IMG/VR virus record: IMGVR_UViG_3300025138_000114
Span: 1 to 37,753 of that record
Length of the DNA stretch: 37,753 bases
Origin: a virus
Strand: one strand, 5' to 3'
Positions 1 to 12,945 of this stretch are shown here, in pieces. Both the position numbers and the translations under genes were made by a program. The first letter of the stretch is position 1; every line of letters starts with the position of its first letter. Under the pieces are notes generated by a model, which did no database searches, was not told the DNA's origin, and saw only the letters and a program-made list of their open reading frames with translations.

Positions 1-53
1 CACAAGAATACATCAACCAATTTACAAAATGGCTACAATCACTGAAGCAATAA
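1..53 (+). CDS. C-terminal end of small membrane protein (joins 37585..37753 if circular)
   Basis: Reading from base 3, an open frame runs to a TAA at 51-53 and encodes about 16 residues (QEYINQFTKWLQSLKQ). It has no start of its own. If the window is circular, the last base of the window plus bases 1-2 make an ACA codon, and this stretch becomes the C-terminus of the small one-helix protein that starts at 37585, giving 73 residues in total. The end then overlaps the start of the next gene (ATG at 29) by 25 bases. The residue style (amphipathic, charged, Gln-rich) continues that of the 37585 frame. A 17-codon open run can occur by chance, so this is moderate evidence. Confidence 0.45.
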   Translation, partial: QEYINQFTKWLQSLKQ

Positions 54-358
54 CACAAGTAGATTCGTTACATCAACGCTATGATCGCCGATGGCAACTT
101 GGCGAGCACAGTTACAATACTCAAGAGATTCAACAACGCGATCTTGAGATTAGGGACGTGCATGGTATTGAACACGGTCTATCGGGACAAGATCTTCGTA
201 TCTTATTTAAGATACTCAAAAAAGACTACGAAGACTGCGGTCGCAAACGTGGCGCAATCCTTCGTTACATTAAGCATTACAGAGAGGTAACAGATAACGC
301 AAAGCCAAAGCTTTCTTTATCTAAGTTACACAGAAATCTAACTCGACAACCACTATGA
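29..358 (+). CDS. Hypothetical protein, 109 aa, first gene of the ThiF/JAMM set
   Basis: I do not recognise this protein. It is 109 residues, strongly charged and predicted largely helical, with a basic C-terminal third (KPKLSLSKLHRNLTRQ). It has no signal peptide, membrane segment or cysteine pair, apart from a single DCGRKRG stretch. The ATG at 29 follows an A-rich leader without a Shine-Dalgarno sequence, as is usual in this genome. Its stop overlaps the ThiF-like start by 4 bases (ATGA at 355-358), which suggests translational coupling. That position makes it a candidate partner of the ThiF/JAMM pair. It does not look like a beta-grasp ubiquitin-like protein: it lacks a Gly-Gly end and looks helical. 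Function unknown. Confidence 0.75.
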   Translation: MATITEAITQVDSLHQRYDRRWQLGEHSYNTQEIQQRDLEIRDVHGIEHGLSGQDLRILFKILKKDYEDCGRKRGAILRYIKHYREVTDNAKPKLSLSKLHRNLTRQPL

Positions 359-1074
359 AACCAAAACTAAAAGCCCTAATCGTAGGTGCAGGCGGCGTAA
401 CCAGTTACATGTTACCAGCACTTAAAAACAGTTTTGACTTACAGCTTACGCTCATCGACGGCGACGTCCTTGAGAAACGTAACCTTGACCGTCAACTCTT
501 TCGCAACAATCACGTCGGCATGAACAAAGCCGAAGCACTAATGCGCACGTATAACTTTCGCAAAAACGAAGGACAAATCGTACGTGGGTACTTCGACAAA
601 GACATGCTTGACACAGAGTACAAATTCTTCTTTCACGAAGCTGACGTACTTATCTGTTGTGCAGACAACCATCCAGCACGTCGTCATCTATTGGAAGCAG
701 CAATACAATTGGACAAACCAATTCTAATTTGTGCTAACGAATACTCAACCAGTCAAGCGTATTACTTTGATCCCAGACTGATGCAACAGTATCCAATGAT
801 GAACCCACTTCTCAGGTATCCTGAGCTACGAACCTCAAACGAAGGTTCCCCAATCCGTTGTCAAGGTGAGGCGCTGGAAGCAACGCCACAACTAGCAATA
901 GCAAACCAAACAAGTGCCTCCCTTGGCAACCTTCTTCTATGGCTGTGGTTCTCAGGAACTGACACTATTGAAGATCACATGCCTGTAGAATACCAAACAA
1001 CGTTCTCACGCATTGAAACAATCACGCTCGCTGATTTAATTAACATCCAAACACCAACTCACAATGTCCAATAA
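355..1074 (+). CDS. ThiF/MoeB/E1-like adenylyltransferase
   Basis: Proteins of the ThiF/E1 family use ATP to adenylate the C-terminus of a ubiquitin-like or sulfur-carrier protein. Visible motifs are the Rossmann nucleotide loop GAGGVTS (residues 11-17), the acidic DGD at 35-37, NLDRQ (43-47), the conserved Lys58 in GMNKAEA, and the CCADNHPARR block (101-110) that matches the DNxxxR element of MoeB. Cys169 in the segment after NEGSPIR is a candidate catalytic cysteine. The MoeB-type CXXC zinc pairs are absent. At 239 aa it is a single-domain enzyme close in size to the ThiF of PRTRC plasmid systems, with no rhodanese or E2 domain. It overlaps its neighbours by 4 and 11 bases. The next gene carries a JAMM motif, so a ubiquitin-like conjugation/deconjugation role is likely. 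The substrate is not evident. Confidence 0.88.
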   Translation: MKPKLKALIVGAGGVTSYMLPALKNSFDLQLTLIDGDVLEKRNLDRQLFRNNHVGMNKAEALMRTYNFRKNEGQIVRGYFDKDMLDTEYKFFFHEADVLICCADNHPARRHLLEAAIQLDKPILICANEYSTSQAYYFDPRLMQQYPMMNPLLRYPELRTSNEGSPIRCQGEALEATPQLAIANQTSASLGNLLLWLWFSGTDTIEDHMPVEYQTTFSRIETITLADLINIQTPTHNVQ

Positions 1075-2218
1075 ATATGTTGTATACGATAACGAAGTAT
1101 TTGAACGCGTTAATCACCCGCTGTTCACTACCTACCGACTGCGCGAAGTCCCAGAAGTTCCAACACTTGAACCAAAGTGGTACGGTAAAAAGATACCGCT
1201 AGAAATGTGGAATGACATTCTTGCGTTTATGAAGATTAGTTACGATAAACTAAAATCAGAAACATTACTATTCTTATACTATGATGAAGACAACACTGAA
1301 AGTCCTTGGTCTTATTGGGTTCCACCTCAAACAACTAGTGGAATGTCTGTTAAGTCCGATCCCACAAATCCAGAGTTTTCAAAACAACGTGCCGCCTATC
1401 CTGACACCTTGTTTGGTACTGTTCATCATCATTGTAGTACATCTGCTTTTCAATCAGGAACTGACGAAGCAGACGAAACAAACCGTGAAGGCTTTCACTT
1501 TACCATCGGTAACCTTAACGACAGAGACACCTGTGACATACATCTTCGATGCACACTAGGCGGTATCTGCGTAGATATTGATGACTTGTCAATAATACTA
1601 CCAGACGTTCCATCTTTGTTTAAAAAGAACATTAAAACTCTTACACCAAAGATGCAAGAAGTAGAGCTTGAATACAAACAAGAACAATACGCAAAGCTAC
1701 CAGACATCACAAAGTATAACTTTGATGATGAGCTTCAAAACGTAACTAAACCTGTTTGGCAACCAAGTCACACAACAAAAAGTTATTCATATCAAACTAG
1801 ACAAGCAGCTTTTAACTACGGCGACGACTACTGGCAAGAGCCAGACATGGACCCTGTAAAAAAAAGTTCACAGCAAATAGATGACATTGTTACTGACATC
1901 ATTGTAAACATTGAGTCAGATGATAAATGCGAAGCTAGTATTTGCGACTACTACACAAAGTTTGAATCCAAACATTCTCATTATTTAGTCGAAGACCTTA
2001 TTTATGGTAGAGCCGAAGATGATGAGTATGAACGAGTTATAAGTCAAATGTTACACAATGACTTTTTCTTATCGACACCAGATGGTAAGTACTTTGAATC
2101 ATTTGTCACTGACAAATGTAAACAACACAAAACAACAATAGACGACGTAAAAAACGCGTTATTTAACTATGAAATCGGAGAAACAGTTCAATCAATGGTT
2201 GACGAAGCAATTCTATGA
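1064..2218 (+). CDS. JAMM/JAB-motif isopeptidase-like protein
   Basis: The N-terminal half carries a textbook JAMM zinc-metalloprotease signature, H121-x-H123-x7-S131-x2-D134, with an upstream glutamate (E66 in KSETLLFLYY) where the family places its catalytic acid. JAB-family enzymes remove ubiquitin-like proteins from targets or trim their C-termini. In PRTRC systems a JAB protein (protein A) accompanies ThiF, which fits the upstream ThiF-like gene that this one overlaps by 11 bases. Residues from about 190 to 384 form an extra acidic, Tyr/Asp-rich region (for example YNFDDE and YGDDYWQEPD) that I cannot assign. The 50-base overlap with the downstream nuclease is unusually long. The motif assignment is firm; the biological role is inferred. 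Confidence 0.82.
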   Translation: MSNKYVVYDNEVFERVNHPLFTTYRLREVPEVPTLEPKWYGKKIPLEMWNDILAFMKISYDKLKSETLLFLYYDEDNTESPWSYWVPPQTTSGMSVKSDPTNPEFSKQRAAYPDTLFGTVHHHCSTSAFQSGTDEADETNREGFHFTIGNLNDRDTCDIHLRCTLGGICVDIDDLSIILPDVPSLFKKNIKTLTPKMQEVELEYKQEQYAKLPDITKYNFDDELQNVTKPVWQPSHTTKSYSYQTRQAAFNYGDDYWQEPDMDPVKKSSQQIDDIVTDIIVNIESDDKCEASICDYYTKFESKHSHYLVEDLIYGRAEDDEYERVISQMLHNDFFLSTPDGKYFESFVTDKCKQHKTTIDDVKNALFNYEIGETVQSMVDEAIL

Positions 2219-2564
2219 ATCAAGCAAAACAAAAGTGTGCGTACAACGCATCGAAACTACTACGGGAAACGGAGTACCTGATTTACTGGTCATCCAACCG
2301 TCTAAGATCTTGCTTATTGAGAGCAAGTTTGAAACTAGAAACATACGCCCTGAACAGGGAGCGTTCCAAATTAAAGCCAATGAAATCATGAGAGACGGCA
2401 ATAATGTATGTTGTACATTATCTGCCTATCCCAAAACCAACCGTCTTGTGTATCAGACATTTAATGCACAGTCAATTACAGAAAACGGTTTAGAACCAAC
2501 ACAACCAATTGAGTTTACTCTTGACGCAAATGGCTTTGCAAACTTTCTTAAACACATTAAATAA
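2169..2564 (+). CDS. VRR-NUC (PD-(D/E)XK) nuclease
   Basis: This 131-aa protein has the compact VRR-NUC layout. GNGVPDLLV is followed about ten residues later by ILLIESKFE, giving the PD...(E)xK active site, and then a conserved RPEQxxFQ-like element (RNIRPEQGAFQ). Family members act as Holliday-junction or flap/structure-specific nucleases; small stand-alone forms are common in phages near replication genes. The start at 2169 lies 50 bases inside the JAMM gene in another frame. It is preferred because the N-terminal helix (MKSEKQFNQWLTKQF) resembles that of other VRR-NUC proteins and there is no later ATG before the core. It probably processes replication or recombination intermediates. Confidence 0.85.
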   Translation: MKSEKQFNQWLTKQFYESSKTKVCVQRIETTTGNGVPDLLVIQPSKILLIESKFETRNIRPEQGAFQIKANEIMRDGNNVCCTLSAYPKTNRLVYQTFNAQSITENGLEPTQPIEFTLDANGFANFLKHIK

Positions 2565-2764: not shown

Positions 2765-3121
2765 ATGACACAAATACCGCTAATAACACTGCTTCTTGCT
2801 TTGACTCACGTTGAAAGCAATGACAAAGATAACGCCATCGGCGACAACGGCACATCATATGGTTGCTTACAAATAAAAGCAATCTATGTAAAAGACGTTA
2901 ATCGTATATTAGGCGAAGAACGATACACACATGAGGACGCGTTTAACCGCGCAAAAGCTTACCACATGTTTATTATATACACTGACCACTATGCTACTGA
3001 AAGACGCTTAGGTCGTGAACCTACAACCGAAGACCGTGTGCGCATTCACAACGGAGGACCCAACGGTTGGAAAAAACCCCATACAAAAGCTTATTGGAAC
3101 AAGGTAAAAAAGATGGTATGA
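2765..3121 (+). CDS. Lysozyme-like/SLT transglycosylase endolysin
   Basis: This enzyme is predicted to cleave the peptidoglycan glycan backbone at lysis. Its N-terminus has the lysozyme-like signature ALTHVES with the probable catalytic Glu17, followed by NAIGDNGTSYGCLQI, which matches the Gly-x-x-Gln-Ile loop of SLT/GH23-like folds. The C-terminal RIHNGGPNGW...YWNKVK segment is also typical of small phage and bacterial members. At 118 aa it is a minimal, single-domain enzyme with no cell-wall-binding module. There is no convincing signal peptide, so export would need a holin. It lies in the rightward arm, far from the holin-like cassette at 15.5-16.2 kb. Its stop overlaps the next gene by 4 bases. 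Confidence 0.85.
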   Translation: MTQIPLITLLLALTHVESNDKDNAIGDNGTSYGCLQIKAIYVKDVNRILGEERYTHEDAFNRAKAYHMFIIYTDHYATERRLGREPTTEDRVRIHNGGPNGWKKPHTKAYWNKVKKMV

Positions 3122-12868: not shown

Positions 12869-12945
12869 CGGGGCATAGCGCAGTCGGGTAGCGCACCTGC
12901 TTTGGGAGCAGGGGGTCGGGGGTTCAAATCCCTCTGCCCCGACCA
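12869..12945 (+). tRNA. tRNA-Pro (anticodon TGG), CCA encoded
   Basis: Full 77-nt cloverleaf. The acceptor stem CGGGGCA pairs with TGCCCCG (12935-12941), with discriminator A12942 and an encoded CCA at 12943-12945. The anticodon stem is CCTGC/GCAGG, and loop TTTGGGA gives anticodon TGG at 12903-12905. The T arm contains GGTTCAAATCC. The C1-G72 pair is characteristic of proline tRNAs. It reads CCA and, by wobble, possibly other proline codons. It is the only tRNA in the window and lies exactly where the two arms converge, 3 bases from the tail-fibre stop codon. Confidence 0.97.

Follow-up and report, generated by a model that had tools for sequence, protein, structure and literature searches.

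The question raised by this locus is what an E1-like enzyme and a JAMM isopeptidase-like protein, encoded side by side by a phage, act upon. Complete conjugation systems for ubiquitin-like proteins (Ubls) are known from eukaryotes, from some bacteria and archaea, and from antiphage defence. The window, by which the whole stretch of DNA analysed is meant, is the single viral contig IMGVR_UViG_3300025138_000114 with a length of 37,753 bases, and it begins in the middle of an operon. An earlier sequence-only reading had described four genes at its start which overlap by 4, 11 and 50 bases, and both the gene borders (Table 1) and the overlaps proved to be exact. It had also seen no Ubl and no E2, and had suggested that the pair might act on a host Ubl or on an unrecognised substrate. 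We now put the probability at roughly three in four that the locus represents the 3' portion of a phage cassette that is self-contained in Ubl conjugation and deconjugation.

The Ubl and E2 genes are seemingly absent from the window because the contig end falls inside the operon. The translation of positions 3 to 50 is 100% identical to residues 291-306 of a 306 amino acid protein, the gene of which is complete in the overlapping viral record IMGVR_UViG_3300001450_001208 (L010). Over the overlap 9656 of 9664 bases (99.9%) of the two records are identical; base 1 of the window corresponds to L010:2403, and L010 extends 2,402 bases further upstream, thereby supplying both genes. In a further relative (L004) a gap of about 3.0 kb lies between the counterparts of the two ends of the window, and this gap contains the Ubl and the E2 genes. 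As the absence of these components is not upheld, the argument for a host or unrecognised substrate falls with it, a Ubl and an E2 candidate of the phage itself being encoded upstream.

Table 1. Features of the cassette; positions refer to the window unless preceded by L010.
Feature	Position	Strand	Remarks
75-aa Ubl gene	L010:1260-1487		upstream of the 306-aa gene
306-aa E2-like gene, complete	L010:1535-2455		Cys198 codon L010:2126-2128
306-aa E2-like gene, 3' end	3-53	+	16 codons and stop
109-aa protein	29-358	+	rich in charged residues; conserved GRKRGAILRYIKxYxE
E1-like adenylyltransferase, 239 aa	355-1074	+	GxGGxxS nucleotide loop, NLxRQ
E1 predicted active-site Cys169	859-861	+	sequence SPIRCQGEALEATPQLAIANQ
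JAMM/JAB isopeptidase-like protein, 384 aa	1064-2218	+	C-terminal region without assigned function
JAMM residues	1259-1261; 1424-1432; 1454-1456; 1463-1465		Glu66; H121 and H123; S131; D134
PD-(D/E)xK / VRR-NUC-like nuclease, small, 131 aa	2169-2564	+	VPDLLV...IESK

As direct matches of the Ubl and the E2 to Pfam and NCBIfam are absent, fold prediction and profile comparison were applied to these two proteins. The 75 amino acid protein matched no family in Pfam, NCBIfam or PHROG, Prok_Ub included, and a sequence search of the PDB with the Ubl, E2 and JAB profiles gave no meaningful matches. An AlphaFold2 model calculated from 13 homologues (pLDDT 88) yielded the order strand-strand-helix-strand-strand-strand as in ubiquitin, followed by a loose tail. 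When this model was compared to the PDB with Foldseek, the top matches were ubiquitin, NEDD8, SUMO, ISG15, other Ubls and designed ubiquitin variants, the best with an E value of 3e-4, a probability of 1.0 and TM scores of about 0.62-0.72. On the basis of the model the protein is a Ubl with a predicted ubiquitin (beta-grasp) fold. All 35 distinct Ubls terminate with Lys-Ala followed directly by the stop codon, with bodies which diverge down to 37-43% identity, and such invariance would be expected of a tail that enters an E1 and becomes linked to target proteins. A terminal alanine is compatible with conjugation because the bacterial cGAS proteins of CBASS are conjugated via a C-terminal glycine or alanine (PMC10097602); the search for a C-terminal Gly-Gly, on which the earlier denial of a Ubl had relied, was too strict. 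In an hhalign comparison to the PRTRC C profile the Ubl scored within the range of shuffled decoys, i.e., with no detectable sequence similarity, so that we make no claim of a shared origin with PRTRC C.

The 306 amino acid protein likewise has no direct match in Pfam or NCBIfam. Its best-kept block, LPNIYDxGxxCxG, contains the cysteine motif of E2 family D (N...G-x2-C-x-G) and resembles the active-site block PLxNVWxxGxICTGS of PRTRC B (Prok-E2_D). Compared with PRTRC B by hhalign, its profile reached a score of 38.5, where the highest of 200 column-shuffled decoys reached 24.0. The corresponding proteins of the phages D69 and Arash gave 50.9 (highest decoy 20.4), and all of these together gave 48.7 (highest decoy 21.1). 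The compared proteins are themselves tied to Pfam Prok-E2_D with E values of 4e-4 for D69, 0.024 for Arash and 2e-48 for PRTRC B. A histidine downstream of the cysteine has been described as absolutely conserved in E2s of the Prok-E2_D type (Iyer et al., PMC1779556); in the alignment it is replaced by asparagine in the phage lineage and likewise in D69 and Arash. A structural model, calculated from a shallow set of homologues, reached a pLDDT of 75, and Foldseek found nothing significant for it in the PDB and in BFVD. Ubiquitin-conjugating or UEV folds came only 19th and 34th in the ranking, with E values above 3, and were discounted. Taken together, the motif, the profile link and the position in the operon suggest that the protein is probably an E2.

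The gene following that of the E2, overlapping it by 25 bases and invariably located between E2 and E1, encodes the 109 amino acid protein. Its GRKRG is an AT-hook-like basic motif, which is unexplained; a similar motif, GRPRG, occurs in a 283 amino acid protein encoded upstream of the Ubl in L004 (L004:3136-3987). The assignment of the second overlapping gene as ThiF-like was confirmed by Pfam (ThiF, 6.7e-20). The NCBIfam model PRTRC_ThiF aligns with residues 4-200 of this E1-like enzyme including the cysteine, at 40-46 bits against a model cut-off of 144.75. When aligned to PRTRC E1s and those of other phages the cysteine column is invariant.

The third gene carries the JAMM motif already recognised, H121-x-H123-x7-S131-x2-D134, preceded by an upstream glutamate. 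The protein matches Pfam Prok-JAB weakly (0.13) and NCBIfam PRTRC_A with E values of 2.7e-4 and 8e-5, which are under the model cut-off. The former view that E1 and JAMM form a cassette of ubiquitin-like type, with PRTRC among its relatives, is supported. For the nuclease the outcome was mixed: a PD-ExK pattern is legible, but the score against Pfam VRR_NUC (0.0021) is under the cut-off. That it is coupled to the cassette holds insofar as it is a constant neighbour in the lineage, but membership in the Ubl machinery was not accepted. The annotations next to the related cassettes of D69, Arash and the PRTRC plasmids show no such nuclease, and it probably stands outside this machinery.

To survey the neighbourhood in other phages, a search with a polymerase profile was performed and yielded 80 related viral loci; some of these are overlapping pulls of one contig, and counts of loci therefore exceed counts of phages. 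In all 22 relatives with sufficient sequence (polymerase identity at least 48% and at least 5.3 kb upstream) the genes for Ubl, E2, the 109 amino acid protein, E1, JAMM and nuclease follow each other on one strand in this fixed order, so that the homologues, whose joint occurrence had been proposed as a check, are always found together. A 23rd relative (L066) is cut within the Ubl. None of the five cassette genes from Ubl to JAMM was found in the six phages with a polymerase identity of 38% or less. One of the 22 (L062) is a contig assigned to a Sneathiella MAG by binning. It was the sole match when 84,980 species, each represented by one genome, were scanned with motifs, a procedure which favours close relatives. 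The E2 cysteine motif is present in 53 of 54 loci, the E1 cysteine motif in 58 of 61, and the JAMM motif with its upstream glutamate in 66 of 67, the misses being truncated open reading frames except for the E1 of L131. A simple dN/dS of 0.09-0.40 for the cassette genes indicates purifying selection. The phage polymerase, primase and helicase genes follow just downstream of the cassette, which lies on the strand opposite to the structural genes. The cassette genes are best read as fixed core genes of an uncultivated marine phage lineage.

Among known systems the closest resemblance is to the PRTRC-type operon (TIGR03735/TIGR03736; Prok_Ub, Prok-E2_D, Prok-JAB), the type of row 6d in Iyer, Burroughs and Aravind 2006 (PMC1779556), in which Ubl, E2, E1 and JAB are encoded by separate genes together with a helical protein, as here. 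Both have in common the region of the E1 cysteine, the E2 motif N...G-x2-C-x-G and a JAB protein of PRTRC_A kind, in the phage with a match under the model cut-off. Ubl tails in PRTRC and phage sets are Lys-Gly or Lys-Ala, a plasmid PRTRC C (L027) ending with GTKA. In contrast to the plasmid-borne PRTRC genes, those of the cassette are phage core genes, with the JAB gene placed after the E1 gene and the 109 amino acid protein standing where PRTRC has an extra protein of about 340-450 residues. The phage Ubl ends with alanine where Prok_Ub has a conserved C-terminal glycine. No ParB-related gene and no PRTRC E were recognised beside the phage cassette, whereas plasmid examples carry both. The cassette thus resembles a row 6d/PRTRC operon and would work like one, but it is not filed as PRTRC because it fails the Prok_Ub match, the terminal glycine, the downstream E2 histidine and the ParB and E genes. 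PRTRC operons on plasmids adjoin ParB or dnaN. In addition, more distant ThiF genes of Lysinibacillus and Leptolyngbya adjoin genes for DNA polymerase III subunits. Plasmid ThiF-like genes with such genes directly beside them (L024:5983-9667 and L025:5929-7710) are a hint that some of these systems act on replication.

Comparable sets are found in other phages, where they are not so annotated in GenBank. In Vibrio phage D69 a triple Ubl-like protein, an E2, a JAMM protein and the cysteine half of an E1 are encoded in one run, and Salmonella phage Arash contains a Ubl-like open reading frame, E2, JAMM and E1. Together with the Vibrio phages D181 and D148, which also encode the triple protein, they share with the present lineage a phage-borne Ubl, an E2 connected by the profile link, JAMM and E1, and Asn-x-Asp-Leu after the E2 cysteine. 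They differ by genomes of 181-188 kb, Ubls ending with TGTKG, the triple fusion in D69, and in that no VRR-NUC is annotated adjacent. The D69 protein (L032:3310-4098, 263 residues, beside the E2 and JAMM genes) consists of three Ubl-like repeats each ending with TGTKG. The likely Ubl of Arash (L034:104-304 in OQ632216) has 67 residues, ends with RTGTKG and is unannotated; GenBank gp251c (102-320) overlaps it in another, wrong frame. Pairs of JAMM and E1-like genes also occur in the crAss-like Bacteroides phage DAC17 (L035:2548-4657) and in an unannotated faecal phage (L033), with no Ubl or E2 identified near either pair. Records named Acinetobacter phage MD-2021a (L026, CAKLQH020000004) look like contigs of a bacterial chromosome, with acsA and with moeB near kdpA, and were dropped.

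The analysis shows which genes are present, their order and joint conservation, the catalytic motifs and the predicted Ubl fold, and from these we infer the following reactions. The E1 would adenylate the C-terminal Ala75 of the Ubl and then hold the Ubl as a thioester on Cys169, from where it would be handed to Cys198 of the E2. The E2 would attach it to an amino group of a phage or host protein, and the JAMM protein would take it off again, with the 109 amino acid protein possibly serving as a small helper. Maturation of the Ubl would be unnecessary since the gene stops straight after Lys-Ala. As to the target, our first guess is a factor of DNA replication or segregation, because the cassette adjoins polymerase, primase and helicase, and the E1 genes of the plasmid relatives lie near ParB and DNA polymerase III subunits; a virion protein comes second. 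We lean, by somewhat more than even odds, to the wider proposal that this marine phage lineage depends on a complete E1-E2-Ubl-JAMM tagging pathway of its own, with a distinct Lys-Ala Ubl, and that this pathway belongs to the core of its infection machinery instead of being a borrowed means of defence or counter-defence.

The position of the cassette also bears on a role in virion maturation, in which capsid or tail proteins would gain or lose the Ubl and the particle would carry the enzymes. Gp246, Gp247 and Gp248 of Arash, which by correspondence are its E1, JAMM and E2, were reported in purified particles by mass spectrometry, in favour of such a role, but the particle list comprises 116 proteins, so that co-purification is possible (PMC10585845). 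The present cassette moreover sits among replication genes and opposite to the structural genes, and we regard virion maturation as unlikely. A function as sulfur carrier, where E1 and Ubl would form a transfer pair like ThiF/ThiS or MoeB/MoaD and JAMM would trim the carrier, is suggested by the ThiF-type models which are the best in NCBIfam for the E1 by bits. The known carriers ThiS and MoaD end with Gly-Gly, as opposed to Lys-Ala in all 35 Ubls; an E2-like protein is always present, the PRTRC_ThiF model spans the E1 including its cysteine, and no sulfur genes were seen near the cassette, which makes this function very improbable.

Either the whole cassette or just its E1 and JAMM proteins might also act on type II CBASS or Bil of the host, for example by cleaving host conjugates or by competing with them. 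Counter-defence genes are seldom core to a whole lineage, which counts against this reading. Phages are targets of Ubl-like immune systems (PMC10097602), the E1 weakly matches the PADLOC E1-E2 and BilD models, and the JAMM protein could cut foreign conjugates. A full cognate Ubl and E2 accompany the pair in every relative tested, however, and a pure saboteur needs neither. CBASS type II with Cap2/Cap3 and the Bil/Bub systems have the E1, E2 and JAMM chemistry in common with the cassette, as well as, for CBASS, a conjugated protein ending with glycine or alanine. Unlike the phage cassette, Cap2 is an E1-E2 fusion which conjugates a nucleotidyltransferase, and the profile matches are weak. Neither a CD-NTase nor a BilA-D gene set with fused E1-E2 nor effector genes were recognised in the cassette or its neighbours. 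Counter-defence is indicated by none of the present findings, and we consider it quite unlikely.

If a phage lineage does keep all four parts of an own tagging pathway fixed, this would show that viruses use Ubl chemistry for their own cycle. No description of a complete phage-encoded Ubl set was found in the open-access papers searched, a collection with no preprints and few subscription papers. The cassette is a compact gene set for biochemistry. It has independent counterparts in phages of Vibrio and Salmonella, of which Arash is grown in the laboratory, and it offers a route to asking for the role of the plasmid PRTRC operons.

Two minor observations concern the surroundings of the cassette. 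Between cassette and polymerase gene a small lysozyme/destabilase-like protein is encoded (2765-3121), with a match to Pfam Destabilase of 1.1e-5 slightly below the cut-off. The phage genome contains a single tRNA gene, a tRNA-Pro with the anticodon TGG, at 12869-12945.
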